Origin: Streptosporangium sandarakinum | GTDB lineage: Bacteria; Actinomycetota; Actinomycetes; Streptosporangiales; Streptosporangiaceae | Direction: 5' to 3' | NCBI RefSeq assembly: GCF_013409935.1 | Contig: NZ_JACCCO010000003.1 | Coordinates: 1,302,001-1,366,000, forward strand | DNA: 64,000 nt | Program-made: the position numbers and the translations under genes | The notes under the pieces: generated by a model | The model's input: the letters and a program-made list of their open reading frames with translations, nothing else | The model's database searches: none | What the model was told of the DNA's origin: nothing | Shown: piece by piece, positions 17,121 through 51,530 of the stretch | How positions within the stretch are numbered: position 1 is the stretch's first letter | Layout of the letters: each line of letters begins with the position of its first letter

Positions 17121-18323
17121 TCAGCGGTAGAGGAGCGGGTCGCCGCCCGTCCAGACCTCCGGGTGGCACGGCGGCGGGCACAGCCCGCGCGGGTCGTCCC
17201 CGGCGTCCAGGACGCGGCGCAGCGAGTCCGACCCCCACAGCAGGTCGGTGAAGTACGGCCGGGCGTTCTCCCCGGCCGGCCCGGCGTTCCCCTCGCCCTG
17301 CCCGGTCTCCTCGCCCGGCCCGGCGTCACCGCGCCGCCAGGCGAACTCCTCCGGGTGCAGCGAGCGCGCCAGGTGCAGCATCGCGAGCCCCGTCAGCACC
17401 GGCCGGAACGCCCCGGCGTCGTGCACGTGGAGTTGCACGCCCCGCACGGCCACACCCGCGTGCTTGCGGAAGGCCGGGGTGAACCACGCGTCGCGGAACC
17501 GTACCCCCGGCAGGTCCAGGGCGTTCAGCCCGGCGGCGAACCGCTCGTCGAGGTAGGGCGCGCCGACCAGCTCGAAGGGGCGGGTCGTGCCGCGGCCCTC
17601 CGACAGGTTCGTGCCCTCGAACAGGCCGGTGCCGGGGTAGACCAGCGCGGTGTCCGGGGTCGGCATGTTCGCCGAGGGCATCACCCAGGGCAGGCCGGTG
17701 GCCGCGTGCGGCATGTCGCGCCGCCACCCCTCGGCCGCGACGACCAGCAGGTCCGCGCCGATGGAACGGTTGACGTGCCGCGCCAGCTCGCCCGCGGTCA
17801 GCCCGTGCCGCAGCGGGATCGCCGCGCGCCCCACGAAGCTGGCGAAGGCGGGGTCGAGGAGCGGCCCCTCCGCGACGGTCCCGCCGAGCGGGTTGGGCCG
17901 GTCCAGTACGGCGAAGCGCACCCCGAGCCGCGCGGCGGAGGCCATGAGGTCGTACATCGTCCAGACGTAGGTGTAGAACCGCGTCCCGATGTCGGCGATG
18001 TCGAAGACGAGGGTGTCGACCTTCGCCGCCTCCACCAGCTCGTCCAGGGCCGCGCTCCCGGCGCCGTAGGTGTCGAGGACCGGCAGGCCGGTGGCCGGGT
18101 CGGTGCCCGCCGCCTCGCCGTGACCGTCCTGGGCGGCGCCGCGCACCCCGTGCTCCGGGCTGAACAGCGCGGTCACCGGCACGCCCGCCGACAGCAGGGC
18201 GGTCACGCCCGGGGTGAGGTCGGGCAGCACCCCGGTGGGGTTGGTGACGAGGCCGATCCGCCCACCGCCGAGGAGGTCGGGGTCGTGAACAACTCGTTCG
18301 ATTCCGGTCCGCACGAGTGACAT
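17121..18323 (-). CDS. namZ: Exo-beta-N-acetylmuramidase NamZ (DUF1343)
   Basis: A ~400-residue cytoplasmic protein of the DUF1343 family. It has a Rossmann-like N-terminal domain with GRIGLVTNPTGV and the conserved ALFSPEHGVRG (Glu57, the putative catalytic position), then VFDIADIGTRFYTYVWTMY, LDRPNPLGG, and a C-terminal domain with ALVYPGTGLFEGTNLSEGRGTTRPFE. The B. subtilis homologue (YbbC/NamZ) releases MurNAc from the non-reducing end of peptidoglycan fragments. It is divergent from murQ, sharing a 68-bp promoter region with a putative operator. The start is uncertain: ATG 18323 and ATG 18335 both lack a proper ribosome site, so a leaderless transcript is possible. A Gly/Glu-rich insertion lies near residue 345. 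Confidence 0.9.
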   Translation of the reverse strand: MSLVRTGIERVVHDPDLLGGGRIGLVTNPTGVLPDLTPGVTALLSAGVPVTALFSPEHGVRGAAQDGHGEAAGTDPATGLPVLDTYGAGSAALDELVEAAKVDTLVFDIADIGTRFYTYVWTMYDLMASAARLGVRFAVLDRPNPLGGTVAEGPLLDPAFASFVGRAAIPLRHGLTAGELARHVNRSIGADLLVVAAEGWRRDMPHAATGLPWVMPSANMPTPDTALVYPGTGLFEGTNLSEGRGTTRPFELVGAPYLDERFAAGLNALDLPGVRFRDAWFTPAFRKHAGVAVRGVQLHVHDAGAFRPVLTGLAMLHLARSLHPEEFAWRRGDAGPGEETGQGEGNAGPAGENARPYFTDLLWGSDSLRRVLDAGDDPRGLCPPPCHPEVWTGGDPLLYR

Positions 18324-18341
18324 CGCTCCATTCATAGAAGA

Positions 18342-18375
18342 TAATTTGCAGAATAGAAGACTTTGGTGAAAATTA
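18342..18375. promoter_or_regulatory. Putative operator between namZ and murQ
   Basis: An AT-rich inverted repeat: TAATTTGCAG (18342-18351), 14 bp, then GTGAAAATTA (18366-18375). It lies in the 68-bp divergent promoter region. A similar element is found between the amino-sugar kinase and anmK genes (50339-50371). A nearby RpiR/MurR-like regulator is a candidate binder. Inferred from sequence likeness only. Confidence 0.45.
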
Positions 18376-18390
18376 GCGACATGGGGCGTC

Positions 18391-19335
18391 ATGATTGATC
18401 CACTCGCCGACCTGTCCACCGAGCAGAGCGATCCGCGCTACGGCCAGATCGACAGGCTCTCGACCGAGCAGGTGGCCCGGCTGATGAACGCGGCCGACGC
18501 CACGGTGCCCGCCGCCGTGGCCACCGCCGTACCGGCGATCTCGGCCGCCATCGACGCCGTCGCCGACCGGATGCGGCGGGGCGGACGTCTGATCTACGTG
18601 GGCGCGGGGACCTCCGGCCGGCTGGCCGTGCTGGACGCCTCCGAGTGCCCGCCGACCTTCGGCACCGACCCCGAGGTGGTGCAGGGCGTCATCGCCGGCG
18701 GCGAGCCCGCGCTGACCCGTTCGGTCGAGGGCGCCGAGGACGACGACGCCGCCGGCGTCGCCGCCATCACCCGCCTGGAGGTGGGCCCGCTCGACTCGGT
18801 GATGGGCGTCTCCGCCAGCGGCCGGGCGCCGTTCGTGATCGGCGCGCTCGGCGAGGCGGAACGCCGCGGCGCGCTGACCGTCGGCCTGTCCTGCAACGCC
18901 GCCACCCCTCTGTCCGCGGCCGCCGCGCACCCGATCGAGGTCGTCGTCGGCCCGGAGGTGGTGACCGGCTCGACCCGTCTCAAGGCCGGGACCGCGCAGA
19001 AGCTGGTGCTGAACATGGTGTCCACCATCACCATGGTCAAACTGGGCCGCACCTACGGGAACACCATGATCGAGGTGTCGGCGATGAACTCCAAGCTGGA
19101 GGGCCGGGCCACCCGCATGGTCTCCGGCCTCACCGGCGCCGACCTCACCGCGGCCCGCGCCGCGCTGGAGGAGGCGGAGTGGAACGTCAAGGTCGCGGTG
19201 CTGGTGATCGAACACGGGATCGGCGCAGACGCGGCCCGGGACCTGCTCGCCGCGCACGGTGACCGGCTGGAGGACGCCCGGTCGGACGGTGCGGCGGTGG
19301 GGGAGCGGGCCACCGAGGACGTGCGGCATGCCTGA
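18391..19335 (+). CDS. murQ: N-acetylmuramic acid 6-phosphate etherase
   Basis: A 314-residue SIS-domain enzyme. It has IYVGAGTSGRLAVLDASECPPTF (residues 68-90, with catalytic Glu85), RSVEGAEDD (second acidic site near 113-116), MGVSASGRAPFVIGAL, and the C-terminal NVKVAVLVIEHG helix of MurQ proteins. It cleaves the D-lactyl ether of MurNAc-6-phosphate to give GlcNAc-6-phosphate and D-lactate in the cytoplasm. Length and order match E. coli and Bacillus MurQ. It is divergent from namZ and overlaps the next gene (serine hydrolase) by 8 bp, so the two are co-translated. No MurP-type PTS permease was seen in the window, so its substrate must come from kinases. Confidence 0.95.
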   Translation: MIDPLADLSTEQSDPRYGQIDRLSTEQVARLMNAADATVPAAVATAVPAISAAIDAVADRMRRGGRLIYVGAGTSGRLAVLDASECPPTFGTDPEVVQGVIAGGEPALTRSVEGAEDDDAAGVAAITRLEVGPLDSVMGVSASGRAPFVIGALGEAERRGALTVGLSCNAATPLSAAAAHPIEVVVGPEVVTGSTRLKAGTAQKLVLNMVSTITMVKLGRTYGNTMIEVSAMNSKLEGRATRMVSGLTGADLTAARAALEEAEWNVKVAVLVIEHGIGADAARDLLAAHGDRLEDARSDGAAVGERATEDVRHA

Positions 19336-20398
19336 CCGGCTCGGCGGCATACTGGCGGCGGCCGTACCGGACGCCTGCTCGGCGGCGGTCGCCGTGATCG
19401 CCGTCGGCGGCGACGTGGTGGCAGCCGCGGCGGCCGGGGAACTGGTCCGCCACGCCGACGCCTCCGGGAAACTCGCCGACGACCGCCCGCCCGCCCGCCG
19501 CGACTCGATCTTCGACCTGGCGTCCGTCACCAAGCTCTTCACCACGGCCGTCATCCTGTCGCTCGCCGAGGACGGCCTGCTCGGCCTGGACGAGCCGGTC
19601 GCCGCCCGGCTGCCCGGCGCGCCCGCCGGCGTCACCATGCGCCACCTGCTCACCCACACCGCCGGACTGCCGCCCAGCCGCGCCCCCGGCCACGAGGCCG
19701 CCGGCGACGGCTCCCGCGCCGCGCACCTCGCGCACGTCCTGGCCACGCCGCCCGCGGGCCCGCTCGGCGGCGGCTACGTCTACTCCGACGTGGGCATGAT
19801 CACCGCGGGCCGGGTGGCGGAGATCGCCGGGGGAGCGCCCCTGGACGAGCTGCTGCGGGCCCGGGTCACCGGCCCGCTCGGCCTGGCCGACACCGGCTAC
19901 CGGCCCGCGGCGGAACTGCGCCACCGGATCGCCGCCACCGAGGACCAGCCCGGGCGACCCGGATCCGGGTGCGTGCGCGGCGAGGTCCACGACGAGACCG
20001 CCTACGACCTGGGCGGCGTCGCCGGGCACGCCGGGATCTTCGCCACCGCCGACGACGTGCTGCGGTTCGCCGAGACCCTGCGCACCGGCGGCGCCCCGAT
20101 CCTGCGGCCGGAGTCGGTCGCCGAGATGACCCGCGACCAGGGGGTGCGCGGCGCGGCCTTCCGCCACGGGCTCGGTGTGCGGATCGGAGACCCGGCCATC
20201 GTCGGCCCGCTCGCCGACGCCTACGGCCACTCCGGCTTCACCGGCACGTCGGTGGTGGTGGACCCCGGCCGGGCGCTGACGGCCGTACTGCTGACCAACA
20301 ACGTCCACCCGCTGCGGGGCCGCGCGGGCATCCGCGACCTGCGCCACGCCGTCGCCGCCGAGGCGCTGCGCCTGTCGGCGGCCGGTGGACGCGGGTAG
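19328..20398 (+). CDS. Serine hydrolase of the beta-lactamase/AmiE (YbbE) family
   Basis: A 356-residue protein with the class-C beta-lactamase/penicillin-binding fold. The nucleophile motif is SVTK (residues 66-69, in FDLASVTKLFTT), the Tyr motif YSD (152-154, GGYVYSDVGM), and a late HSGFTGTS in place of KTG. No signal peptide is evident, so a cytoplasmic location is likely. In B. subtilis the homologous YbbE (AmiE) in the murQ-murR-murP-amiE-nagZ-namZ cluster removes peptides from MurNAc. The 8-bp overlap with murQ strongly supports the same role here, though esterase or peptidase activity remains possible. Confidence 0.85.
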   Translation: MPDRLGGILAAAVPDACSAAVAVIAVGGDVVAAAAAGELVRHADASGKLADDRPPARRDSIFDLASVTKLFTTAVILSLAEDGLLGLDEPVAARLPGAPAGVTMRHLLTHTAGLPPSRAPGHEAAGDGSRAAHLAHVLATPPAGPLGGGYVYSDVGMITAGRVAEIAGGAPLDELLRARVTGPLGLADTGYRPAAELRHRIAATEDQPGRPGSGCVRGEVHDETAYDLGGVAGHAGIFATADDVLRFAETLRTGGAPILRPESVAEMTRDQGVRGAAFRHGLGVRIGDPAIVGPLADAYGHSGFTGTSVVVDPGRALTAVLLTNNVHPLRGRAGIRDLRHAVAAEALRLSAAGGRG

Positions 20399-24335: not shown

Positions 24336-25343
24336 TCAGCCGGCGAAGTGGCAGGCCACCTCCCTCTCTCCCGGTCCGTGGATTTCGAGCGGAGGGGCCT
24401 CGGCCCGGCAGACGTCCCGGGCCATGGCGCAGCGCGGGTTGAAGGAGCAGCCCGGGGGCGGGTCGGCCGGGCTGGGAGGGTCGCCCGGCAGGACGATCCG
24501 CTCGCGGACGAGTTCCACCTCGGGGTCGGGGACCGGTACGGCCGACAGCAGGGCCCGGGTGTAGGGGTGTGCCGGGGCGGTGTAGACGGCGTCGCGGGAG
24601 CCGATCTCCACGACGCGGCCGAGATACATCACCGCGACCCGGTCGCACACGTGCCGCACCACCGACAGGTCGTGGGCGATGAACAGGTACGCCAGGTCCA
24701 ACTCCCGCTGAAGGTCGGCGAGCAGGTTGACGATCTGCGCCTGGATCGACACGTCCAGCGCCGAGACCGGTTCGTCGCAGACGATCAGCCTGGGTCGGGA
24801 CGCCAACGCGCGGGCGATGCCGATGCGCTGGGCCTGGCCGCCGGAGAACTCGTGCGGGTAGCGGTCGGCGTGCTCCGCGCCCAGGCCGACCATCTCCAGA
24901 AGCTCGATCACACCGCGCCGGTCCAGCAGCCGCGTCGGGCCGGAGACGATCCGCTCGACGGTCTGGCGGGGGTTCAGCGACGCGAACGGGTCCTGGAAGA
25001 TCATCTGTATGTCGCGGCGGAACGGGCGCATGTCGCGCGGGCCGAGCCGGGTGATGTCGCGGCCGTCGAAGACGACGGTGCCGCCGGTGGGCTCCAGCAG
25101 CCGGACGATCATCCGGCCGGTGGTGGACTTGCCGCAGCCGGACTCCCCGACCAGGCCGAGGGTCTCTCCCGGCCACACGTCGAAGGTGACGCCGTCCACG
25201 GCCCTGACCCCGTTCCGCTTCCCGAAGGTCATCCGCAGGTCCCGTACGGACAGCAACGGCGTGGACCGGCGCCCGGCGTCCGGCGCCGCGTCGGGTACGG
25301 TGCCCGGCGCGCCGTCCGGGCGGGTGGGCGGCGCTCCGGTCAT
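24336..25343 (-). CDS. ABC transporter ATP-binding protein (DppF type)
   Basis: A 335-residue ATPase. Walker [10 protein letters not shown] (65-73), Q-loop [12 protein letters not shown], signature FSGGQAQRIGIARAL, Walker B LIVCDEPVSALD, and the OppF C-terminal CSFNPRCAMARDVC. The first ~30 residues are Pro/Ala/Asp-rich. FQDP Q-loops and the DEPVSALD box are typical of dipeptide/oligopeptide importers. Last gene of operon 2; it overlaps the preceding ATPase gene by 4 bp and is followed by a strong hairpin. Confidence 0.92.
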   Translation of the reverse strand: MTGAPPTRPDGAPGTVPDAAPDAGRRSTPLLSVRDLRMTFGKRNGVRAVDGVTFDVWPGETLGLVGESGCGKSTTGRMIVRLLEPTGGTVVFDGRDITRLGPRDMRPFRRDIQMIFQDPFASLNPRQTVERIVSGPTRLLDRRGVIELLEMVGLGAEHADRYPHEFSGGQAQRIGIARALASRPRLIVCDEPVSALDVSIQAQIVNLLADLQRELDLAYLFIAHDLSVVRHVCDRVAVMYLGRVVEIGSRDAVYTAPAHPYTRALLSAVPVPDPEVELVRERIVLPGDPPSPADPPPGCSFNPRCAMARDVCRAEAPPLEIHGPGEREVACHFAG

Positions 25344-26446
25344 CGTGGGCCTCCGAGGGTTCCGGTCAGGTGGCAGGCCGTACGGTGGACCGGGCCAGCC
25401 GGAGCGCCTTCCGGGCCGACCGGACGGAGCGCGCGGCCCGTATGGATCTCCCGGATCTCGTGGATCTCAAGGGGCCCGCGGAACTCGCGAAGCTCAGGCG
25501 CCTCGGTGACGCAGGCGTCTTCGGGGGTCGCGGCGTAGCGGGCGCAGCGGGGGTGGAACCGGCAGCCGGGCGGCGGCGCGAGCAGCGACGGCGGGCTGCC
25601 GGGGATGGCCCGCAGCCGTCCCCCGGCGGCCGGGCCCGCCGCGCCCCCGGCGGCCGGATCCGGTGAGCCTTCCGCGCTTCCGGCCGTCAGGCGGGGGGCG
25701 GAGGCGAGCAGGCCCTGCGTGTAGGGGTGACGGGGAGCCCTGAAGATCTCCCGCACCGGGGCGTGCTCGACGGTGCGGCCGCCGTACATCACCAGGACCT
25801 CGTCGGCGACCCGCGCCACGACGCCCAGGTCATGGGTGATCAACATGACGGCGATGCCGCGGTCCTGCTGGATTCTCTTGATCAGTTCGAGGATCTGCGC
25901 CTGCACGGTCACGTCCAGGGCGGTGGTCGGCTCGTCGGCGATGAGCAGGTCCGGCTCGCAGGACAGGGCCATCGCGATCATCACGCGCTGCCGCATGCCG
26001 CCGGAGAAACGGTGGGGGTGCTCGCCCGCGCGCCGCCTCGGCTCGGGGATGCCCACCTCGGCCAGCATCTCCACCGCGCGTTCCCGCGCCACCCGGCGCG
26101 AGGCGCGCAGGTGCAGCCGGTACGCCTCGGCGATCTGCTCGCCGACGGTGTAGAAGGGGTGCAGCGACGACAGCGGATCCTGGAAGACCATCGCCATCCT
26201 GCGGCCGCGCAGTTCGCGGAGGCGTGAGGCGGGCGCGCCCACCAGTTCCTCGCCGTCGAAGACGATCGAGCCGGAGACGGCCGCCTCGCGGTGCAGGCCC
26301 ATGATCGCCAGCGACGACACCGACTTGCCGGAGCCGGACTCGCCGACGACGCCGAGCGTGCGGCCCCGGTCCAGGTCGAAGCCGATCCCGTCCACCGCGG
26401 TCCCGGCGGGGAACGCGACCCGCAGGTCTCTCACTCGCAGGATCAC
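25340..26446 (-). CDS. ABC transporter ATP-binding protein (DppD type)
   Basis: A 368-residue ATPase starting at a GTG that overlaps the permease stop by 4 bp (GTGA). Walker [10 protein letters not shown] (35-43), Q-loop MVFQDPLSSLHP, signature FSGGMRQRVMIAMAL, Walker [13 protein letters not shown], and the C-terminal CRFHPRCARYAATPEDAC motif. A Gly/Ala/Pro insert (residues ~285-310) and an unusual C-terminal extension rich in Glu/Ile/His (EFRGPLEIHEIREIHTG) set it apart from standard DppD. It forms the ATPase dimer with the downstream DppF-type subunit. Confidence 0.92.
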   Translation of the reverse strand: MILRVRDLRVAFPAGTAVDGIGFDLDRGRTLGVVGESGSGKSVSSLAIMGLHREAAVSGSIVFDGEELVGAPASRLRELRGRRMAMVFQDPLSSLHPFYTVGEQIAEAYRLHLRASRRVARERAVEMLAEVGIPEPRRRAGEHPHRFSGGMRQRVMIAMALSCEPDLLIADEPTTALDVTVQAQILELIKRIQQDRGIAVMLITHDLGVVARVADEVLVMYGGRTVEHAPVREIFRAPRHPYTQGLLASAPRLTAGSAEGSPDPAAGGAAGPAAGGRLRAIPGSPPSLLAPPPGCRFHPRCARYAATPEDACVTEAPELREFRGPLEIHEIREIHTGRALRPVGPEGAPAGPVHRTACHLTGTLGGPR

Positions 26447-27432
26447 GCGTACCTCACACGGGGGTCGATCACCGCGTAGACGAGGTCCACGCCGAGGTTG
26501 GCCAGGGTGATGAAGAATGCCGCCAGCAGGGTGACGCCGAGCACGACGGGCTGGTCGGCCTTGAAGATCGCGTCGTAGGTGAGCTGGCCGACGCCGGGCA
26601 GTCCGAAGACGTGCTCGGTGATGACGGCCCCGGCGAGCAGCCCGCCCAGGTCCATGCCGAAGATCGTCACGATGGGGGTGAGCGCCGAGCGCAGGCCGTG
26701 CTTGGTGACGACGGTCCGCTCGTACAGGCCCTTGGCGCGGGCCGTTCTGATGTACGGCTCCGCCATCGTCTCGATCATCGAGGCCCGGGTGAGCCGGGCG
26801 TACATGGCGGCGTACAGGCTGGCGAGCGTCATCCAGGGCAGCAGCAGGTTGCCAGCCCAGGCGGCCGGGCCCTCGGAGATCGGCCGGTAGTCGGGGTAGG
26901 GCAGCCATTCGAGTCGCTGGACCAGGACCAGCAGCAGCATCATCGCGGTGAAGTAGACCGGTGCCGAGGCGGAGGCCAGCGTGGCCGCCATGAGCGAGCG
27001 GTCGAGCGTGGTCCCCCGGCGCAGGGCGGCGACCAGCCCGACGGCCAGGCCGCCGGCCAGCCAGAGCACGGCCGCGCCGAGGGCCAGCGAGACGCTCACC
27101 GGCAGGCGGTCGGTCAGCAGGTCCCAGACGGGCAGCGCGTTCTGGTAGGAGTAGCCGAAACAGGGGACCGAGCACTCCAGCGCGGCCGGGCCGTCGCCCA
27201 GCGTGCGGCCGGTGAAGATGCCGGCCACGTAGCCGCCGAACTGCTCGTACACCGGCCTGTCCAGGCCCATCTGCGTGCGCACCAGCGCCACCTGCTCGGG
27301 GGTGCAGGTCTTGCCGCAGGCGTGGGCGGCCGGGTCCGAGGGGAGCACGTAGAAGACGGCGAAGGTCACCGCGCAGATGACGAGCAGCACGCCCGCCACC
27401 GCGGCGAGCCGCCGCAGCAGGTAGCGGGTCAT
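26443..27432 (-). CDS. ABC transporter permease (DppB type)
   Basis: A 329-residue permease. First helix MTRYLLRRLAAVAGVLLVICAVTFAVFYVLPSDP, then CGKTCTPEQVALVRTQMGLDRPVYEQF as the extracytoplasmic part (with Cys residues that may form disulfides), and the docking loop YIRTARAKGLYERTVVTKHGLRSALTP. The C-terminus is VIDPRVRYA. It overlaps the upstream permease by 4 bp and the downstream ATPase by 4 bp, so all genes of this operon are translationally linked. Confidence 0.92.
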   Translation of the reverse strand: MTRYLLRRLAAVAGVLLVICAVTFAVFYVLPSDPAAHACGKTCTPEQVALVRTQMGLDRPVYEQFGGYVAGIFTGRTLGDGPAALECSVPCFGYSYQNALPVWDLLTDRLPVSVSLALGAAVLWLAGGLAVGLVAALRRGTTLDRSLMAATLASASAPVYFTAMMLLLVLVQRLEWLPYPDYRPISEGPAAWAGNLLLPWMTLASLYAAMYARLTRASMIETMAEPYIRTARAKGLYERTVVTKHGLRSALTPIVTIFGMDLGGLLAGAVITEHVFGLPGVGQLTYDAIFKADQPVVLGVTLLAAFFITLANLGVDLVYAVIDPRVRYA

Positions 27433-35074: not shown

Positions 35075-35258
35075 TCACATGCCGCTTGAGTCGCATGGAT
35101 GGAGTTTCCGGCAGGCGCGATGTCGGCGACCTGCCTGGACGAGGCGAGCGAGCTGGGCGCGGGGGCGGTGAGCAGGGCGGCACGGGGAACCGCGGCGTGG
35201 TGCGGTGTGGGGTCGGGCACACCTCGGGCAGGGGCGACCATCCATGGATACCGCAGGA

Positions 35259-41442: not shown

Positions 41443-42428
41443 GCATCCTGGAGGGGCGCAACCTCACCAAGCACTTCACCGCCGCCCGCGGTCCCCGAGG
41501 CCGTTTCGGCAAGCGGCCGCCGGTGCGGGCGGTGGAGGACGTCTCGATCGCGCTGCGGGCCGGCTCGGTGACGGCGCTGGTCGGGGAGAGCGGCTGCGGT
41601 AAGAGCACGGTCGCGCGGCTGCTGGCCCAGGTCTATCCGGTCACGTCCGGCGAGGTGCTGCTGCGCGGCGAGCCGGTACGCGCCCACCGCGGCGCCGCCT
41701 TCAAGGAGTACCGGCGCCAGGTTCAGCTCATCTTTCAGGACCCCTTCGCCTCCTTGAACCCCTTCCACCGGGTCCGCTATCACCTGGCCAGGCCCCTGCG
41801 CCTGCACGGGCACGCCCGTTCCGACGCCGAGGAGCGCGAGCAGGTCGCCGAGCTGCTCGAACGCGTCAGCCTCACCCCGGTCGAGCAGTTCATGGACAAG
41901 ATGCCGCACGAGCTGTCCGGCGGTCAGCGGCAGCGGGTGGCGATCGCGCGGGCGCTGGCGGTGCGGCCCATCGCGCTGATCGCCGACGAGCCCGTGTCGA
42001 TGCTGGACGTCTCCATCAGGCTCGGCGTGCTGCGGCTGCTGGAAGGGCTGGCGCGGGAGAACGGGCTGGCGCTGCTCTACATCACGCACGACATCGCCAG
42101 CGCCCGTTACTTCGCCGAGGACATCACGGTCATGTACGCGGGACGGCTGATCGAGAGCGGGCCGAGCGAGGAGCTCACGCAGTCGCCGCGGCACCCGTAC
42201 ACGCGGCTGCTGCTGGAGTCGGCGCCGGATCCCGACCGGGTGGCACCACCCGCGGGCGAGCGGCACGGCGAGCCGCCCAGCCTGATCGACCCGCCGGGCG
42301 GCTGCCGGTTCCATCCGCGCTGCCCGGTGGCGTTGCCGGTGTGCTCGACCGAGGTGCCGGGGCGTACGGAACTGGGCGAGGGACGCTGGACGCACTGCTG
42401 GCAGGCCGGCGCGGCGCTCAGCCGCTAG
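41439..42428 (+). CDS. ABC transporter ATP-binding protein (DppF type)
   Basis: A 329-residue ATPase, last gene of the seven-gene unit. Walker [10 protein letters not shown] (49-57), Q-loop [19 protein letters not shown], signature [15 protein letters not shown], Walker [14 protein letters not shown], and C-terminal [14 protein letters not shown]. It is followed 45 bp later by a strong hairpin terminator. Confidence 0.92.
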
Positions 42429-42601: not shown

Positions 42602-43495
42602 CTACCTGTTCCGGCGGCGGGTGTCGGCGACGTACTCGTCCACCACGTCCCGGGTGGCCCGCAGCGCCGCCTCCGAGGTCTCGAAGGTGCGCTGGGCGAT
42701 GCCGACGAAGATGCAGTCGACGATCAGCAGCTGGCTGATCCGGCTGGCCAGCGCGCCGGGCCGGAACGCGGTCTCCCGGCCCGCCGAGACCAGGACGTGG
42801 TCGGCCAGCTCCGCCAGCGACGAGCGCGGGTTGTTGGTGATCGCGACCGTGGCCGCGCCCGCCTTGCGCGCCACCCGCATCGGCGCCAGCACGTCCGGCG
42901 TCTCCCCGGAGGTGCTCACCCCCACCGCCACGTCCTGCGCCCGGAGCAGGGCCGCGCTGGTCAGCGCGAGGTGGGAGTCGGTGAACGCGTGGCCGGACAG
43001 GCCGATGCGCATCAGCTTCTGCTCCATGTCGACCGCGACGAGCCCGGAGGCGCCCACGCCGTAGACGTCCACCCGGCGGGCCGCGGCGACGGCCTCGATC
43101 ACCGCGCCCAGCCGGTCGGGGTTCAGCTGGGCCGAGGTGTCGGCCAGCGCCTCCGACTCGGCCCTGGCCACCTTCGCGATCACGTCGGTGAGCGGGTCGT
43201 CGGGCCCCAGATCGCCGGGGACGAGCCGCTCGGGCTCCTCCCTGGCCACCGCGGCGGCCAGGGCGAAGCGGAGCTGGGAGTAGCCGGCGAAGCCCAGGGC
43301 GCGGGCGGTGCGCACGATCGTGGCCTCGCTCGTCCCGGAGACCGCGCTGAACTCGGTGATCGTGCTGCGGGCCACCATTCCCGGGTCGTCGAGGATGAGG
43401 CGGGCGATGGCCTGGGCGGCCGGCGTCAGCGACGGCAGGACGGCCCGCACCGTGGCCACCAGGTTCCCCGGTGTGGGGTCGTCATGGTCGTTCAT
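42602..43495 (-). CDS. RpiR/MurR-family transcriptional regulator with SIS domain
   Basis: A 297-residue regulator. The N-terminal HTH_6 domain (residues ~10-80; AQAIARLILDDPGMVARSTITEFSAVSGTSEATIVRTARALGF) is followed by a SIS sugar-phosphate-binding domain (~120-260; RVDVYGVGASGLVAVDMEQKL ... VGVSTSGETPDVL). RpiR regulators of the MurR type respond to MurNAc-6-phosphate. GGAGG lies 6 bp before ATG 43495. It follows nagZ by 77 bp on the same strand and is probably co-transcribed, as murR is with cell-wall recycling genes in Bacillus. It is the best candidate to bind the GAAAA/TTTTC repeats noted near namZ/murQ, the kinase/anmK pair and the GNAT operon. Confidence 0.88.
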   Translation of the reverse strand: MNDHDDPTPGNLVATVRAVLPSLTPAAQAIARLILDDPGMVARSTITEFSAVSGTSEATIVRTARALGFAGYSQLRFALAAAVAREEPERLVPGDLGPDDPLTDVIAKVARAESEALADTSAQLNPDRLGAVIEAVAAARRVDVYGVGASGLVAVDMEQKLMRIGLSGHAFTDSHLALTSAALLRAQDVAVGVSTSGETPDVLAPMRVARKAGAATVAITNNPRSSLAELADHVLVSAGRETAFRPGALASRISQLLIVDCIFVGIAQRTFETSEAALRATRDVVDEYVADTRRRNR

Positions 43496-43572: not shown

Positions 43573-45159
43573 CTATTGTCCGCAGGTCAGGTGGAGAGCG
43601 ACGATCCGGGCGGAAACCCGAGAAATACCGTGGGTCGCGATGTGCACGGCGCCGGCGGGTTCGCCGGGCACGCCGGTCTCGACGACGATCGCGTCGGGGC
43701 GCAGCCGTACGGCGCGGGCCAGGATCTCGGCCGCCCACGGCTGGCGGTGGGCGTCGTGCGCCACCAGCACGAGCGGCCGGCCCGCCTCGCCGCCTTCGCC
43801 GAGGTCGGGCAGGCCGGGGGAGTCGGTGGTGACGGTGTGCCCGGTGGTGCCCGGCATCAGCTCGGTCATGGCGCCGAAGATGCCGGTGGGCGTGCCGGGG
43901 GCCACCGCGAGGTTGAGCCGCGGGGCGATGTCCACGACCAGCGGCGGGCGGGTGAGCGGGAGCGCGGGCGCGAGGCGGGCGTCCCGTACGGTGACCCGCA
44001 GGGCGGCGCGGGCGGCTTCCATCCCGAGTTCCCCGGAGCCCGTCCCGAGGTCACCGGAGGCCTCCTCGCGCTCCCCGGTCACCTTGGCGCGGGCGGCGGC
44101 GTTCGCGGTGTACCAGGCCGCCAGGTCCAGCACGCGCGCCGCGGCCTCCGCCAGCCGTTCCTCGGCCAGTTCGCCGCGGCGCACGGCCGCCACGATCGCG
44201 TCGCGCATCGCGAGGACGCTCTCCCCGCCGGGGGAGGAGGTGCCGACGCAGATCGCGTCGACCCCGGCGGCCAGCGCGCGGACGGCGAGCTCGCCGGGCG
44301 GGTGCAGGGCCGCCACGGCGCCCATCTCGATCGCGTCGGTGACCAGCATGCCGTCGAAGCCCAGCTCCTCGCGGAGCAGCCCGGTCAGGATCGGCCGGCT
44401 CAGCGTGGCGGGGTGGTCGGGGTCGAGGGCGGGCACCAGCAGGTGGCCGCACATGACGGCCCGGACACCGGTCTCGACGGCCGCCCGGAACGGCGGCAGG
44501 TCGCGCTCGCGCAGCAGGTCGAGGGAGGCGTGCACGGTGGGCAGCGCCAGGTGGGAGTCGGTGACGGTGTCGCCGTGGCCGGGGAAGTGCTTGGCGCAGG
44601 CGGCCACCCCCGCGCCCTGCATGCCCCTGACCCAGGCCGCGGTGTGCCGGGAGACCAGCGCGGGGTCGCTTCCGAAGGAGCGGATGCCGATCACCGGGTT
44701 GCGCGGGTCGGCGTTGACGTCGGCGGAGGGGGCGTAGTCCAGGGTGATCCCGGCCGCGGCGAGCATGCGGCCGATGCCCCGGGCGACCCGCTCGGTACGG
44801 CCGGCGTCGTCGGCCACGCCGAGCGCGAGGTTGCCCGGCCAGGAGCTGCCGGCCACCGCCTCCAGGCGGGTGACCGCGCCGCCCTCCTCGTCGACCGCGA
44901 CGATCACGTCCGGGTTCTCCCGCCGCAGCGCGGCGACCAGCTCCGCGGTCTGCGCCGGGCCGGTGAGGTTGCGGGCGAACAGCACGGCGCCGCCGAGGCC
45001 CTCACCGAGCGCCCGCCGCAGCCACTCGGGCGGCTCGGTGCCGTCGAAGCCGGGCTGGAGCACCGTCATGGCCATCCGGGCCAGACCGGGATCGCCGGAG
45101 GACCCGCCGGACCAGCCGGAACCGCCGGAGGACGTGCTGCCGGACATGTTGTCGCTCAT
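43573..45159 (-). CDS. nagZ: Beta-N-acetylglucosaminidase NagZ (GH3)
   Basis: A 528-residue glycoside hydrolase family 3 enzyme. It has VIVAVDEEGGAVTRL, the NagZ catalytic loop KHFPGHGDTVTDSH (190-203, giving the Asp-His dyad D201/H203), and LVTDAIEMGAV with nucleophile Asp275. A C-terminal domain of ~180 residues follows, so the layout resembles two-domain Gram-positive NagZ (YbbD), not the short E. coli form. No signal peptide is seen, so it probably acts in the cytoplasm on GlcNAc-MurNAc or GlcNAc-anhydroMurNAc fragments. ATG 45159 follows AAGGTG; an upstream start at 45183 is possible. It is divergent from the GHL10 gene and upstream of rpiR. Confidence 0.92.
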   Translation of the reverse strand: MSDNMSGSTSSGGSGWSGGSSGDPGLARMAMTVLQPGFDGTEPPEWLRRALGEGLGGAVLFARNLTGPAQTAELVAALRRENPDVIVAVDEEGGAVTRLEAVAGSSWPGNLALGVADDAGRTERVARGIGRMLAAAGITLDYAPSADVNADPRNPVIGIRSFGSDPALVSRHTAAWVRGMQGAGVAACAKHFPGHGDTVTDSHLALPTVHASLDLLRERDLPPFRAAVETGVRAVMCGHLLVPALDPDHPATLSRPILTGLLREELGFDGMLVTDAIEMGAVAALHPPGELAVRALAAGVDAICVGTSSPGGESVLAMRDAIVAAVRRGELAEERLAEAAARVLDLAAWYTANAAARAKVTGEREEASGDLGTGSGELGMEAARAALRVTVRDARLAPALPLTRPPLVVDIAPRLNLAVAPGTPTGIFGAMTELMPGTTGHTVTTDSPGLPDLGEGGEAGRPLVLVAHDAHRQPWAAEILARAVRLRPDAIVVETGVPGEPAGAVHIATHGISRVSARIVALHLTCGQ

Positions 45160-45405
45160 CGTCACCTTCTCACCGGGACTCACCGGACGTCCTGGGCAGG
45201 TTACACATCCATGACACTTTCTTTCATCTTCATTGCCTCAAAAGTAGATTTCTGCCATTCTCGCCGTCGAGACACCCGCGATCAACCTCGTGTTCGGCCG
45301 GGGGCGTCGGCGACGGCAGCGGACCCGTGATGTGCGGTTCCGCGGCCCGTCCGCCACGATCCGCGGCCGAAGCGGGTTACGGGCGAACACCCCCTTGGAG
45401 TCTGC

Positions 45406-46962
45406 ATGAGCTCACCCACCCGACGCACCGTCCTGCGCGGCCTCGCGCTCGCCGCCGCGGCGAGCGCCGCGCCGCTGCCCGCCTTCGCCTCCGCCACCTC
45501 CCCCTCCGCCGGCGGATACGTCCCGCCGCTGCGCCAGATGCGCGGCATGTGGATCGCCTCGGTGGTCAACATCAACTGGCCGTCCAAGCCCGGGCTGACC
45601 GTCGAGCAGCAGAAGGCCGAGTATCTCGCCTGGCTGGACCTGGCCCAGGCTCGCAGGCTCAACTCGGTGTTCGTGCAGATCCGGCCGACGGCCGACGCCT
45701 TCTGGCCCTCGCCGTACGAGCCGTGGTCGGAGTACCTGACCGGGACCCAGGGGCAGGACCCCGGCTACGACCCGCTGGCCTTCCTGGTGGAGGAGACCCA
45801 CCGGCGCGGCCTGACCTTCCACGCGTGGTTCAACCCCTACCGGGTGTCGATGCAGCCGGACCCGGCCAAGCTGCACCCCGACCACCCGGGCCGCAAGCAC
45901 CCCGACTGGATCATCCCCTACGGCGGCAAGATCTACTACAACCCCGGCCTGCCGGAGGTCCGCGCGTTCGTGCAGGACGCCATGATGGACGCGGTCACCC
46001 GCTACGACATCGACGGCCTGCACTTCGACGACTACTTCTACCCGGTGAACACCACCGCCTTCGACGACGCCGCCGCCTTCGCCAAGTACGGCCAGGGCTT
46101 CCCGGACCTGGCCGCCTGGCGGCGCAACAACGTCGACCTGCTGGTCTCGGAGATGCAGCAGCGCGTGCTGGCCGCCAAGCCCGAGGTCGCCTGGGGCATC
46201 AGCCCCTCGGGCATCTGGCGCAACAAGTCCACCGACCCGCTGGGCTCGGACACCGGCGGCAGCCAGTCCTACGACAACCTGCACGCCGACACCCGCGGCT
46301 GGGTCAAGAAGGGCTGGCTCGACTACATCGCCCCGCAGATCTACTGGTACATCGGCCAGTCGAACGCCGACTACGCCAAGCTGGTCCCCTGGTGGTCCGG
46401 CGTGGCCGCGGGCACCGGCACCGAGCTGTGGATCGGCCAGGCGGCCTACAAGGCGGGCGCCGCCGGCCAGCCCGCCGAGTGGTTCCGCCCCGACGAGCTC
46501 ACCAACCACCTGACCCTGAACCGCAGCCACCCCGAGGTGGGCGGCGACATCTGGTACAACTCCGCCGACGTCCGCGACGACCGGATCGGCTCGGTCACCC
46601 GGACCGTGGCCGCCCACTACACCCGCCCGGCGCTTCCCCCGCTGCTGCCCAGGCTCGCGCACGGCCGGGCCCCGGAGCGCCCGGTGCTCGTCTGGGCCAA
46701 GAGGGGGTCCGGCGGCGTCGAGCTGCGCATCCAGGCCAGGGGCCATGAGACGCCGTTCCAGTACGCGGTCTTCCGGCTCGACCGCCCGGCCCGGCCCGGG
46801 GACTTCGACGACGCCGGCAACCTGGTCGCGCTCGTCCCGGCCACCGGCAAGCAGGTGCGCTGGGTGGACTCCGACGGCGGCGGGAACTCCCACTACTACG
46901 TCACGGCCGTCGACCGGGTCAGCCGGCAGAGCGCGCCGAGCGACGTCCGCCGCGCGCACTGA
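45406..46962 (+). CDS. GHL10-family (DigH/YngK-like) glycoside hydrolase, Tat-exported
   Basis: A 518-residue secreted protein. The N-terminus carries a Tat-type signal (SSPTRRTVLRGLALAAAASA). The (beta/alpha)8 GHL10 core (formerly DUF187) has MRGMWIASVVNINWPSKPGL, NSVFVQIRPTADAFWPS, FHAWFNPYRVS and IDGLHFDDYFYP (206-213, likely catalytic acids), then APQIYWYIGQSNADYAKLV. The last ~90 residues form a fibronectin-like domain. The E. coli relative DigH cuts peptide-free glycan strands at the septum. Divergence from nagZ across a ~245-bp region suggests it works outside the cell to supply fragments for salvage. GGAG lies 9 bp before ATG 45406. Confidence 0.88.
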   Translation: MSSPTRRTVLRGLALAAAASAAPLPAFASATSPSAGGYVPPLRQMRGMWIASVVNINWPSKPGLTVEQQKAEYLAWLDLAQARRLNSVFVQIRPTADAFWPSPYEPWSEYLTGTQGQDPGYDPLAFLVEETHRRGLTFHAWFNPYRVSMQPDPAKLHPDHPGRKHPDWIIPYGGKIYYNPGLPEVRAFVQDAMMDAVTRYDIDGLHFDDYFYPVNTTAFDDAAAFAKYGQGFPDLAAWRRNNVDLLVSEMQQRVLAAKPEVAWGISPSGIWRNKSTDPLGSDTGGSQSYDNLHADTRGWVKKGWLDYIAPQIYWYIGQSNADYAKLVPWWSGVAAGTGTELWIGQAAYKAGAAGQPAEWFRPDELTNHLTLNRSHPEVGGDIWYNSADVRDDRIGSVTRTVAAHYTRPALPPLLPRLAHGRAPERPVLVWAKRGSGGVELRIQARGHETPFQYAVFRLDRPARPGDFDDAGNLVALVPATGKQVRWVDSDGGGNSHYYVTAVDRVSRQSAPSDVRRAH

Positions 46963-48030: not shown

Positions 48031-49206
48031 TCAGACGGACGCGGCGGACAGGATCACGTCCACCAGCCGGTCCGCCGCGTCCGGCCTTCCGTGCGCCCTG
48101 GCCCGATGCGCCATCGCCGCCCGCCGGGCGGGGTCGGCCAGGAGCGGTTCCACCGCCTGCCACAGATCGGCCGCCGTGACCTCACCGGTCAGCGCCACCG
48201 CGGCTCCGGTGCTCTCCAGGTGGCGGGCGTTGTGCGCCTGCTCGTTCCCGGCCGACGTGGCGAGCGGGACGAACACCGCGGGCTTGCCGAGCGCGGTCAG
48301 TTCGGCCAGTGTCCCGGCGCCGCTGCGGGAGACCACCACGTCGGCCAGGGCCAGCACGTCCGGCAGCTCCGGCCCGACGAACCCGGTCAGGTGGTATCGG
48401 GCGGACGCCTCCGGCGGAAGGGCCGACGCGCTCCGCCGCAGCGCGTCGACGTGCGCGGGCCCGCACTGGTGGACCACGTTCGCCCGCTGCAGCAGCCACG
48501 GCAGCGTGTCACGGACCACATCGTTGATCTGCTGGGAGCCCTGGGCGCCGCCCGTGACGTACACGGTCGGCAGGCGCCGGTCGAAGCCCCACAGCCCCAG
48601 CGCCCCGACCGCCTTGTCCGCGTGTCCCGCCAGCACCTCGGGGCGGACCGGGTTGCCCGTGACGACCCCGAGGGCGCGCACCGACTCCGGCAGCAGCGGC
48701 AGCGACGACTCCGACGACACGGCGATGCGCGTCGCCCGGCGCGCGAGCCTGCGGTTGGCCAGCCCCAGCCGCACCGTCTGCTCGTGCAGCACCAGCGGCC
48801 GGCGGCATATGCGGGCCGCCAGGCCCGCCGGGACGGCGACGTAACCCCCGGTCGCCAGAACGACGTCCGGCCGGAAACCGGCGATCACCCTCCTGGCCTG
48901 CAACACCCCGAGCGGCACGCGCGCCATGTCCCGGATGTTCGCCGGAGACAGCATCTTCAGCGGATTGCTCGACCGGCGGATCTTGCCCGTGGCGACCGTC
49001 GTGAACGCGATCCCCTCGGCCGGCGCGACACGCGCCTCCAGCCCCTCCTCGGTGCCGATCCACAGGACGTCCAGCGATCCACCGCCCGCGGCGAGCCGGT
49101 CCCGCAGCGTGCGGATCGCGGTCAGGGCCGGATACGTGTGGCCGCCCGTACCTCCTCCCGAGACGATCAACCGGAAGGGGCGTGAGAGACGAGGAGCGTT
49201 GGTCAC
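48031..49206 (-). CDS. MurG-like UDP-GlcNAc glycosyltransferase (GT28), divergent paralogue
   Basis: A ~391-residue GT28 enzyme. Landmarks of MurG are present: LIVSGGGTGGHTYPA (glycine loop 17-23), VLATGGYVAVPAGLAA, VVTGNPVRPEV, VYVTGGAQGSQQIND and DVVVSRSGAGTLAELTA. The usual HEQNxxPGxxN loop reads HEQTVRLGLANRRLA, so Asn and Pro are changed. True MurG makes lipid II and sits in the dcw cluster. Here the gene is outside any division cluster, so a paralogous role (cell-wall variant, secondary glycosylation) is likely. The GTG start at 49206 has a weak ribosome site; GTG 49233 is possible. Confidence 0.85.
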   Translation of the reverse strand: MTNAPRLSRPFRLIVSGGGTGGHTYPALTAIRTLRDRLAAGGGSLDVLWIGTEEGLEARVAPAEGIAFTTVATGKIRRSSNPLKMLSPANIRDMARVPLGVLQARRVIAGFRPDVVLATGGYVAVPAGLAARICRRPLVLHEQTVRLGLANRRLARRATRIAVSSESSLPLLPESVRALGVVTGNPVRPEVLAGHADKAVGALGLWGFDRRLPTVYVTGGAQGSQQINDVVRDTLPWLLQRANVVHQCGPAHVDALRRSASALPPEASARYHLTGFVGPELPDVLALADVVVSRSGAGTLAELTALGKPAVFVPLATSAGNEQAHNARHLESTGAAVALTGEVTAADLWQAVEPLLADPARRAAMAHRARAHGRPDAADRLVDVILSAASV

Positions 49207-49290
49207 CGGATGAACCCTACTGGCTGCCCGCACCGCGGAGAGACGGCCCCGGGACGGCGGCGAGGCACGGAGCCCGGCCGCCGGAGGGGG

Positions 49291-50319
49291 TCAGCCGATC
49301 AGGCGGCGGTGGGCGGCGAGCGGGTCGGGGACGGCGCCCGCGCCGGCCGCGTGCAGCGCGAGGGCGGCGGCCCCGGCGGCGCTGTCGCGGGCGGTGACCA
49401 CGGTCCCGGCCAGCCCGGCGCGTACCTTCCCGGCGAGCAGCGTGGGTTCGGTGAGCAGCGATCCGGCCAGCACCAGCGGCCCCGAGACGGGACCCAGCGC
49501 TCCCACGGTGGCGGCCAGCCGCCGCGCGGCCTCATCCAGGATCGCCGTGGCCGCGGCGTCGCCGTCCCGGGCTGCGGCCTCCACGGCCGGCGCCAGCCGC
49601 GCGAGCCACGCCGGGCCGGACTCGGCGATCCCCGCGTGGACCAGCCGCACGATCTCCTGCGCCGACGGCGCCGATGGCGCCGACGGAGCCGATCCCGCCG
49701 ATCCCAGCGGTCCCGGTGCCGCCGGTCCCGGTCCCGCCTGCTCCGGCGACCGCGACGGTGCCGGCTCCGCCGCGTCGCCGAAGCAGCCCAGCAGCGCGGT
49801 GGGCGCCGCCCGTCCGTCGACCGAGGCCAGCACCGCCCGTACGGCGCGCCGCCCGATCCACGTCCCCGAGCCCTCGTCGCCGAGCAGCCAGCCGTACCCG
49901 TCGGCCCGGCCGGTGACGCGCCGGTCGTCGATCCGGGCGGCCACCGCGCCGGTCCCGGCGATCAGGACCGCGCCGGACGCCTCCGCGGTCGCCCCGGCGA
50001 AGGCGGCGAGCGCGTCGGAGACCACCGAGGGCCGTCCGGGCAGGCCGGCCGCCCGCCACGCCTCCGCGGCGACGGCCTCGGTCCGCTCGCGCGCCGAGTC
50101 CCCGCCCGCCAGGCCGAACACGCCGGCCGTCACCTCGCCGGGGTCGAGCCCCGCGAGCGCGGCCAGCAGCGCCCCGCGCAGGCTGCCGCCCGGGTCGGCG
50201 GACGACAGGATGTTGGAACCCCCGCCGTATCCCCGCCCGGCGACCTCCCCGGAGACGGTCGCCACCACGCACCGCGTGCTCGTCCCGCCGCCGTCAACGC
50301 CGATGACCAGTGCCGTCAC
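49291..50319 (-). CDS. BadF/BadG-type amino-sugar kinase (NagK/MurK-like)
   Basis: A 342-residue kinase of the ASKHA fold. Phosphate-1 motif LVIGVDGGGTSTRCVVA (7-14), adenosine and phosphate-2 regions VLIAGTGAVAA and GWLLGDEGSGTWIGRRAV, and a C-terminal PLVLAGSLLT. In this family are GlcNAc kinases and the Clostridium MurK, which phosphorylates both MurNAc and GlcNAc. A Gly/Ala/Pro/Ser insertion lies in the middle (encoded by a repetitive GCCGATGGCGCC stretch). GTG 50319 has GGAG 5 bp upstream. It is divergent from anmK across 68 bp, so the two probably share regulation. MurNAc kinase activity would explain how murQ is fed without a PTS. Confidence 0.88.
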   Translation of the reverse strand: MTALVIGVDGGGTSTRCVVATVSGEVAGRGYGGGSNILSSADPGGSLRGALLAALAGLDPGEVTAGVFGLAGGDSARERTEAVAAEAWRAAGLPGRPSVVSDALAAFAGATAEASGAVLIAGTGAVAARIDDRRVTGRADGYGWLLGDEGSGTWIGRRAVRAVLASVDGRAAPTALLGCFGDAAEPAPSRSPEQAGPGPAAPGPLGSAGSAPSAPSAPSAQEIVRLVHAGIAESGPAWLARLAPAVEAAARDGDAAATAILDEAARRLAATVGALGPVSGPLVLAGSLLTEPTLLAGKVRAGLAGTVVTARDSAAGAAALALHAAGAGAVPDPLAAHRRLIG

Positions 50320-50338
50320 GGAAGCTCCATCTGTAGCC

Positions 50339-50371
50339 AATTTTCCTGTGACTATATTGTCGTGAAAAAAT
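50339..50371. promoter_or_regulatory. Overlapping divergent promoters and putative operator, kinase/anmK
   Basis: AATTTTCCTG (50339-50348), 13 bp, then GTGAAAAAAT (50362-50371) form an AT-rich inverted repeat like that at namZ/murQ. On the minus strand TTGCAG and TATAGT, spaced 16 bp, form a good promoter for the kinase gene. A plus-strand TATATT overlaps the same place and could be the anmK -10. A repressor bound here would control both. Confidence 0.5.
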
Positions 50372-50387
50372 CCTGCAAGGAGAAGGT

Positions 50388-51530
50388 GTGCGGGTACTCG
50401 GTCTGATCTCGGGAACATCTCACGACGGCATCGACAGCGCGGTGGTGGACTGGTCGCTGGACGGCGACGTGCTCACCGGGGTGGTGGAGCACATCGGCGA
50501 GCGGCCCTACGACGCCGCGCTGCGTGCCCGGATCGTCGCCGCGCTGCCGCCCCGCCCGGCCGACATGGGGGAGGTCTGCCGCCTCGACACCCTGATCGGC
50601 CAGGCGTTCGCCGACGCCGCCGCCGGCTGCGGGCCGGTCGACCTCGTCTGCTCGCACGGCCAGACGCTCTACCACTGGGTCGAGGACGGGCGGGTGCGCG
50701 GCACCCTCCAGCTCGGCCAGGCCGCCTGGATCGCCGAGCGGACCGGCGTCCCCGTGGTCTCCGACCTGCGCTCGCGCGACGTGAGCGCGGGCGGGCAGGG
50801 CGCCCCGCTGGTCTCCTCCTTCGACCTGCCGCTGCTGGCCGGGCTGCCCGGCCGCAGCGGCGCCCTGAACCTCGGCGGCATCGCCAACCTGACCGTCCGG
50901 GAGCCCGGCCTCGCCTACGACACCGGCCCGGCGTCCGCACTGATCGACGCGGCCGTCGCGGCGGCCACGGGCCTGCCGTACGACGAGGACGGGCGGCTCG
51001 CCGCGGCCGGCACGGTGCACGAGGGGCTGCTCACCGAACTGCTGGCCGAGCCGTACTACCGGGCGGCGCCGCCCAAGAGCACCGGCAAGGAGCTGTTCCA
51101 CCCCGGCTACCTCGACGCCGTCGCCGGGCCGTACGGCCTGGCCCTGCCCGACCTGGTGGCGACGCTGACCGCGCTGACGGCCGAGACCGCCGCCGCGGAG
51201 ATCCGGCGGCACCGGCTCGGCACGGTCGTCGCCTCCGGCGGCGGGACGCGCAACCCGGTCATGATGGCCATGCTGCGCGAGCGCGCCGGGGAGGCGCGGA
51301 TCGTGCTCAGCGACGAGCTCGGCGTGCCGTCCGGAGCCAAGGAGGCGATCGCCTTCTCCTTCCTCGGCTGGCTGACCGCCCACGGCCTGCCCGGGACCGT
51401 CCCGGAGTGCACGGGCGCCTCGGGGCCGCGGGTGCTCGGCAGCGTCACCCCCGGCCGGGGGCCGCTGCGGCTGCCCGAACCGCCGCCCCGGGCACCCGCC
51501 CGGCTGCGTATGAGGACCGCTTCCACCTGA
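50388..51530 (+). CDS. anmK: Anhydro-N-acetylmuramic acid kinase
   Basis: A 380-residue AnmK. N-terminal [12 protein letters not shown] (the Streptomyces-like His form of GTSMDGID), [33 protein letters not shown] and [11 protein letters not shown] (177-187; Asp178 the likely catalytic base), with a late [11 protein letters not shown]. The enzyme opens and phosphorylates 1,6-anhydroMurNAc to MurNAc-6-phosphate, the substrate of MurQ. GTG 50388 follows AAGGAG. The last ~25 codons overlap the 3' end of the convergent exoprotein gene. Its presence implies that anhydro-muropeptides, made by lytic transglycosylases, are recycled. Confidence 0.95.

Follow-up and report, generated by a model that had tools for sequence, protein, structure and literature searches.

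A probable MurR-type regulon for salvage of peptidoglycan sugars, with a conserved ABC importer, in Streptosporangium sandarakinum and its relatives

The subject of this work is a 64 kb stretch of the Streptosporangium sandarakinum genome (7.65 Mb, labelled G000), in the following called the window, which holds a set of genes belonging to peptidoglycan-recycling families. The window genome is close to Streptosporangium pseudovulgare (NamZ identity 98%), and a sister genome (G005) was compared. An initial annotation had named namZ, murQ, an amiE-like gene, nagZ, rpiR, a GHL10 gene, badF and anmK here; matches to Pfam and NCBIfam models, with which protein families were assigned on revised gene starts, bear out all of them.

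One half of the set is arranged around a divergent promoter. On the minus strand, namZ (17121–18323) encodes a predicted exo-β-N-acetylmuramidase with both characteristic domains (PF07075 and PF20732; NamZ_N 232.8 bits, NamZ_C 150.2 bits), of a family that we take to be GH171. On the plus strand, murQ (18391–19335) encodes the etherase of N-acetylmuramic acid (MurNAc) 6-phosphate (TIGR00274, 344.7 bits, cut-off 302), and an ATG overlapping its stop opens the gene of an AmiE-like serine hydrolase of the β-lactamase fold with an SVTK motif (19328–20398; PF00144). The other half starts from two further divergent promoters. To the left of the first lies nagZ-rpiR on the minus strand. The NagZ-like GH3 β-N-acetylglucosaminidase (43573–45159; PF00933), which carries KHFPGHGDTVTDSH, stays under the equivalog cut-off of PRK05337 (190.7 bits versus 207) and matches PDB entries 6k5j (E 2.6e-75) and 3bmx, B. 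subtilis NagZ (E 4.4e-58). It has the motif KHFPGHG...DSH. The last gene encodes the RpiR/MurR-type regulator (42602–43495; PF01418 helix–turn–helix and PF01380 SIS domains), which is below the E. coli MurR equivalog cut-off (NF012026, 112 bits versus 408). To the right, on the plus strand, lies the gene of a GHL10 protein (45406–46962; PF02638, 5.8e-84), a candidate lytic transglycosylase. The second promoter separates badF, encoding a MurK-like sugar kinase of the BadF family (49291–50319, minus strand; PF01869), from anmK, encoding anhydro-MurNAc kinase (50388–51530, plus strand; NF007146, 575.8 bits, cut-off 440). NagA is encoded in the genome.

Where these proteins act was judged from signal peptides, read by eye and from hydropathy; twin-arginine and lipoprotein readings are by eye. 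The NamZ N-terminus, MSLVRTGIERVV, shows no visible signal peptide, nor does its longest reading, and none was seen in this way for MurQ, the AmiE-like protein or the NagZ-like protein (N-terminus MSDNMSG). By contrast with Bacillus, where NamZ acts extracellularly, the NamZ/NagZ/AmiE/MurQ pathway hence probably runs in the cytoplasm. As a positive comparison, the same reading reveals a classical signal on NamZ and AmiE from two Planococcus-type loci. In a few relatives, an alternative upstream namZ start, through the AT-rich operator region, would yield a hydrophobic stretch; the missing-signal argument is therefore strong for the window and weaker for every relative. GHL10, with its RR motif, is the sole member of the set in the window predicted to be exported, via twin-arginine translocation. 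The proposed division into extracellular and cytoplasmic parts, as in Bacillus, is thus not supported here; amidases and a second GHL10 are encoded elsewhere in the genome.

Importer A belongs to the ATP-binding cassette (ABC) transporters and lies on the plus strand. It consists of a family-5 substrate-binding protein (SBP), SBP_A (9910–11730; PF00496), which reads as a lipoprotein, and of permeases and ATPases (11734–12741, 12738–13670, 13660–14892 and 14889–15899; PF00528 twice, PF00005 with PF08352 twice). This gene order is kept in relatives, many of which have a GNAT relative in the slot occupied here by gnatA, encoding a tandem GNAT acetyltransferase (15938–16906, plus strand, start approximate; two Pfam GNAT stretches). 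The operon of importer C, also on the plus strand, opens with a tandem GNAT acetyltransferase, gnatC (35379–36314; Pfam), and a PIG-L family de-N-acetylase (36311–37021; PF02585; BshB-like, weak match to diacetylchitobiose deacetylase). SBP_C (37018–38658; PDB 6lzu, E 7.9e-74, nearly full length) and the permeases and ATPases follow (38652–39635, 39632–40462, 40459–41442 and about 41409–42428; Pfam). gnatA and gnatC are related and stand one beside each of these importers, gnatC being paired with the deacetylase; they perhaps serve re- and de-N-acetylation of wall sugars.

Linkage in relatives ties importer A to murQ. In 120 Streptosporangiaceae genomes, with SBP_A homologues accepted at E 1e-100 or better, 40 genomes hold 43 copies, and 41 of the 43 lie within 7 kb of murQ; the remaining two lie 4.0 kb from namZ and 0.3 kb from rpiR. 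The clustering that the initial annotation proposed to examine in related genomes is thus conserved. At least 22 copies have namZ nearby and at least 21 have rpiR within 20 kb, both counts being lower bounds. An rpiR orthologue (≥70% identity) is present in 38 of the 40 genomes with importer A, versus 4 of the 80 without. In gene maps, the block importer A-(GNAT)-namZ|murQ-amiE recurs in Nonomuraea, Streptosporangium, Sinosporangium, Planotetraspora, Microbispora and Sphaerimonospora; the namZ survey over named genomes covered the best 80 of 164 loci. Planotetraspora and Sphaerimonospora mesophila have one contiguous badF-nagZ-rpiR-importer A-(namZ)-murQ-amiE cluster, found also in Microbispora, usually without rpiR, which is present in M. 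corallina. The second module, rpiR-nagZ|GHL10-badF|anmK, recurs in many, not all, of forty regions of 6.8–20 kb from family genomes. In the window this conserved cluster is thus split in two; about 22 kb separate the halves, and importers B and C as well as a collagenase gene are found there. Most relatives lack the importer C operon; it is complete in two loci (L221 and L222), with no murQ in the stretch fetched. gnatC homologues lie near namZ in L046, L049, L051 and L223. The last of these holds an alternative cluster, ordered anmK-murQ|rpiR-namZ-gnatC; it has two operator pairs, of 26.8 and 37.4 bits, and a pigL homologue follows at 3 kb.

The operator in question is the palindrome TGWAR-N5-YTWCA, first suggested by inspecting the promoters of relatives. 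We scored the window with a matrix trained on relatives, window and sister genome being excluded from training. Its eight best single sites in 64 kb (9791, 18336, 18367, 35258, 45212, 50363, 35288 and 50332) all fall in five promoters of the set, each with a partner at 30 or 31 bp. Upstream of importer A, the pair at 9791–9805 and 9822–9836 (31 bp apart, 34.1 bits), conserved in relatives, combines the top single match of the window (9791, 22.4 bits) with a weaker one (9822, 11.7 bits). The divergent namZ|murQ promoter has the window's best pair (18336–18350 and 18367–18381, 31 bp apart, 41.7 bits). Further pairs lie upstream of the importer C operon (35258–35272 and 35288–35302, 30 bp apart, 37.9 bits), in the divergent nagZ|GHL10 promoter (45212–45226 and 45243–45257, 31 bp apart, 33.8 bits, the partner of 45212 being weaker with 13.3 bits) and in the divergent badF|anmK promoter (50332–50346 and 50363–50377, 31 bp apart, 35.1 bits). 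These five pairs score 33.8–41.7 bits, and nowhere else in the window does a pair reach 15 bits; at each of the five promoters, 0 of 2000 Markov shuffles reached the observed pair. When only SBP_A promoters (6 distinct sites) were used for training, the matrix ranked nagZ|GHL10 2nd, badF|anmK 3rd, murQ 4th and 5th and gnatC 8th and 11th. The single 15-bp palindrome, searched without mismatch over the whole genome, was uninformative (44 places versus 41 in the reversed control), so that only the matrix or the pairs discriminate. That the set is spread over several units, as annotated at first, is correct, and the units share one operator. The spacing of three helical turns suggests that two dimers may sit on one face of the helix. 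E. coli MurR binds two inverted repeats; on published MurR operators, nothing relevant was among the literature matches listed.

In relatives, the palindrome with one mismatch allowed was found in 30 of 45 SBP_A, 36 of 60 murQ, 22 of 24 badF, 8 of 18 nagZ, 7 of 8 anmK and 13 of 13 GHL10 upstream regions (shuffles 1.35, 0.9, 0.45, 0.15, 0.2 and 0.6), as counted after near-duplicate removal from 60, 78, 31, 22, 10 and 13 regions, respectively. Among promoters holding a good site, out of the 45 SBP_A, 60 murQ, 24 badF and 8 anmK promoters, the second-best site lay 31 bp off in 35 of 44, 35 of 35, 19 of 21 and 7 of 7. Pairs of at least 28 bits numbered 131 across 118 loci (2.26 Mb, overlapping and picked around genes of the set), every one of them close to where a match to a gene of the window begins. 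A pair resembling that of the window precedes the importer C operon in L221 (32.0 bits) and, more weakly, in L222 (20.3 bits). One relative has apparently lost most of importer A and retains an operator pair before the remaining ATPase gene (L127:5821–5866).

Genome-wide, we scanned nine genomes (E up to 10) with a model, R1, built from 56 operator pairs of relatives on sequence only with a fixed spacing of 31. The 52 rows obtained fall at 32 distinct places, of which 30 are promoters of the set; the namZ|murQ pair is the best genome-wide match in G000 (E 3.2e-5). A new place was the divergent promoter of a second GHL10 gene, GHL10-2, and of an Amidase_2-family (AmpD-like) amidase that by eye appears exported; it holds two pairs of 25.7 and 32.6 bits. 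GHL10-2 is 58% identical to the window GHL10, and it and its amidase neighbour each bear a golvesin-type C-terminal domain. Amidase homologues occur in 19 of 27 genomes, at 28 loci, 25 of them with a readable start; not all are orthologues, and two genomes are near-identical. Pairs of at least 22 bits lie upstream in 15 of these 25 regions versus 0.35% of null windows (20,000 stretches from the window with operators masked, L185 and further loci). A shuffle control (12%) was unusable, half of each region being unshuffled and possibly holding GHL10-2 operators. The upstream regions with such a pair include that of a second, distant amidase gene of G000 (C2:983134), with 22.9 bits. Beside one operator-bearing amidase gene, a sodium:solute symporter gene follows (L182:7724–9313, plus strand), a possible further uptake route.

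We consider it rather probable that the whole set is a MurR-type regulon for the salvage of peptidoglycan sugars. Exported GHL10, GHL10-2 and amidases would cut the wall to largely peptide-free di- and oligosaccharides, some with 1,6-anhydroMurNAc ends. Cwp19, a GHL10 enzyme, is a lytic transglycosylase producing such ends (excerpt of PMC6016235); the presence of AnmK in the regulon would be explained if GHL10 acts likewise. Importer A, and in some species also importer C, may take up the sugars through their oligosaccharide-type family-5 SBPs, as homology, linkage and the shared operators suggest. Inside, NagZ and NamZ would split the disaccharides, and AmiE would strip remaining L-Ala or peptide. 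AnmK would convert anhydroMurNAc and the MurK-like BadF kinase free MurNAc to MurNAc-6-phosphate, from which MurQ would produce GlcNAc-6-phosphate (GlcNAc, N-acetylglucosamine) and D-lactate. The RpiR protein may act as repressor of every unit, bound to a pair of palindromes that are spaced by three helical turns and overlap the promoters, with MurNAc-6-phosphate presumably releasing it, by analogy to E. coli MurR, which represses in the absence of this compound (excerpt of PMC5061867). Downstream of namZ in Phytoactinopolyspora lie genes for PIG-L, a tandem GNAT and an L-lactate permease (L046:12426–16025); the permease may be functionally linked, since MurQ releases D-lactate. We regard it as an even bet that the whole resembles a polysaccharide utilisation locus, i.e., a peptidoglycan-utilisation regulon with secreted amidases and GHL10s, two dedicated ABC importers for wall disaccharides, a tandem GNAT per importer (one of them with PIG-L) for adjusting N-acetylation, and the cytoplasmic pathway, all under one MurR via 31-bp pairs. 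Importer A would then be, to our knowledge, the first known ABC importer assigned to MurNAc-containing disaccharides in actinomycetes.

Several observations weigh against this regulon. The palindrome was chosen after some of the counted promoters had been seen, which biases the first counts, and R1 necessarily recovers the sites on which it was trained, which affects the relatives and leaves G000 and G005 untouched. With its fixed spacing, R1 misses the importer C pair, spaced 30, and genome-wide it scores the nagZ|GHL10 and badF|anmK pairs weakly (E 1.16 and 0.505; 0.0098 and 0.0042 in the window). Its two places outside the set promoters are one orthologous site in G000 and G005, themselves weak (E 2.75 and 3.1). 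R1 finds nothing in G104, where badF sites are visible by eye (L136). The nagZ and GHL10 promoters of relatives mostly show a 27 bp spacing (7 of 9 and 12 of 13), and 10 of the 25 amidase upstream regions are without operator. namZ is absent near about half of the importer A copies, being present at 22 of 43. gnatC homologues occur in 5 of 120 genomes; in the two Streptomyces and the one Phytoactinopolyspora that have it near namZ, the operator was not found. The AlphaFold model of SBP_A is weak (pLDDT 64; used for ranking only), and its best sequence matches cover part of the length. Finally, BadF could be a GlcNAc kinase.

The substrate of importer A is where an alternative fares best, namely that it brings in muropeptides or free peptides, like Opp/MppA or YejBEF-YepA, with sugar enzymes processing them inside and the exported amidases incidental. 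All three importers of the window have Opp/Dpp-type permeases and ATPases, and in Agrobacterium an ABC transporter mediates muropeptide recycling (excerpt of PMC9790009). AmiE seems cytoplasmic here, and thus some peptide-bearing MurNAc probably enters. Against this, comparisons of sequence (E 1.3e-23 over part of the length), profile (2.4e-28) and fold all place SBP_A nearest, among solved structures, to SBPs that bind mannan and chitin oligosaccharides; in the fold comparison, the top 15 matches are sugar-binding SBPs, at TM-scores near 0.5 from the weak model. The murein-peptide binding protein matches SBP_A far more poorly (E 3e-6), and the amidases have the same operator as importer A. 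We consider import of muropeptides or free peptides by importer A unlikely.

It is more doubtful still that another regulator binds the paired palindromes while the RpiR protein serves part of the set only. RpiR paralogues are common, and in G003, G064 and G106 the sites are distant from this rpiR orthologue. However, rpiR lies inside the cluster, where a promoter with the operator stands upstream of it, and it tends to be present in the genomes that hold importer A; moreover, the RpiR paralogue of L223 adjoins murQ and namZ with an operator of the same kind.

For BadF, the best PDB match is the MurNAc/GlcNAc kinase 8zo3 (E 6.2e-22, top of 11). All 17 aligned sequences have Ser, Pro or Ala directly in front of the catalytic Asp. 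In Tannerella MurK this residue is Thr, not Asn, which was argued to leave room for the lactyl ether (excerpt of PMC10465942). The BadF pattern is compatible with such room and is not proof of MurNAc use, since 8zo3 has Asn at the aligned position. A set mainly for GlcNAc or chitin oligosaccharides, with MurNAc as side product and BadF as GlcNAc kinase, seems to us quite improbable: SBP_C is closest to Vibrio chitin-oligosaccharide-binding proteins and BadF also gives a match to the NagK model (75.6 bits, short of the 370 required), but MurQ, NamZ, AnmK and the amidases belong to families for MurNAc or peptidoglycan, importer A tracks murQ, and a GlcNAc-type phosphotransferase system (PTS) gene lies elsewhere, with no 31-bp pair found in its surrounding 14 kb.

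That gene came from a PTS_EIIC search of the host genome, which found two places, both on another contig, GlcNAc-type and mannitol-like (the latter by eye), and no MurP-type PTS in the locus. A set with an ABC importer and cytoplasmic kinases in the place of MurP, as initially annotated, is supported. 'PTS-free' holds at the locus but, the genome having two PTS IIC genes, applies to the MurNAc route only.

The initial annotation also counted three family-5 importers. All are real, but importer A, the conserved one, lies outside the interval first proposed, and importer B (24336–30082; Pfam) is not part of the system: its upstream region scores −7.6 bits, with no operator, and it was not seen beside the set in relatives, SBP_B homologues being at most 38% identical in the loci compared (L002, the sister's locus, spans the operon partly). 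The best PDB match of SBP_B is OppA2 of the clavulanate cluster (E 3.1e-88). Between importers B and C lies the gene of an M9 collagenase with PKD and PPC domains (30757–34104, plus strand), likewise rejected (upstream region −4.1 bits, no operator; only in the window and the sister genome among loci examined). A MurG-like paralogue between GHL10 and badF (48031–49233, minus strand; 244 bits, just below the cut-off of 250.25), which the initial annotation does not mention, was left out, as it occurs only in the window and the sister G005 among loci examined; the genome's other MurG (C1:997294) scores 250.7 bits. Convergent with anmK lies the gene of a putative ice-binding-like adhesive domain protein (51445–52893, minus strand; PF20597).

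Among known systems, the B. subtilis murQRP-amiE-nagZ-namZ cluster shares the MurQ, RpiR-type regulator, AmiE-like, NagZ-like and NamZ families with the window. It has MurP, however, where the window has an ABC importer, a BadF kinase and AnmK, and unlike the B. subtilis cluster the window consists of several units joined by a shared operator. AmiE and NagZ of B. subtilis act extracellularly (excerpt of PMC5061867), whereas AmiE, NagZ and NamZ of the window are without recognisable signal peptides. Because MurP is missing and secretion is not recognised, we do not class the window set as a member of the Bacillus cluster type. E. coli-type recycling, with import and a MurR divergon, likewise has cytoplasmic NagZ, AnmK and MurQ with an RpiR-type regulator; the window differs by its ABC oligosaccharide importers, its added NamZ and BadF kinase and the exported lytic enzymes sharing the operator. 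The MurK route feeds MurQ without a MurNAc PTS. In Clostridium acetobutylicum and Tannerella a BadF-family MurNAc kinase serves it (excerpt of PMC10465942), of which the MurK-like BadF of the window would be the counterpart, but ABC import, the operator-pair regulon and the actinomycete host set the window apart. Agrobacterium YejBEF-YepA is likewise an ABC transporter for wall fragments (excerpt of PMC9790009); it takes muropeptides, whereas the window SBPs are nearest to oligosaccharide binders and importer A lies beside murQ in the family. Streptomyces coelicolor SCO4307-SCO4308 (murQ-murR) resembles the window in that an actinomycete murQ is accompanied by a MurR-like regulator and MurP is missing. 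In the excerpt of PMC5061867 no importer is named for it, whereas here importer A is linked to murQ.

MurQ recycling without MurP in S. coelicolor, ABC muropeptide recycling in Agrobacterium, MurK kinases and NamZ are thus already known. As far as searched, it looks new that an importer is linked to murQ in Streptosporangiaceae, that NamZ, AmiE and NagZ are apparently cytoplasmic there, that the units carry a paired-operator code and that exported GHL10 and amidases are included: in titles and abstract starts among the matches listed from the open PMC literature, no description of this importer, operator or regulon was found. S. coelicolor recycles MurNAc through MurQ though 'an ortholog of MurP is missing' (excerpt of PMC5061867), and a 2026 mycobacterial preprint still refers to 'an unknown transporter' (excerpt of PMC13041923). 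For one actinomycete family, the link between importer A and murQ names candidate importers for this gap stated in print. The operator code permits a search for the regulon in related genomes and predicts that uncharacterised GHL10, GNAT, PIG-L and amidase genes have functions related to the wall. The pattern suggests how such bacteria may import MurNAc without the Bacillus transporter and, if true, would be relevant to the use of walls, their own or those of other bacteria, as food by soil actinomycetes.

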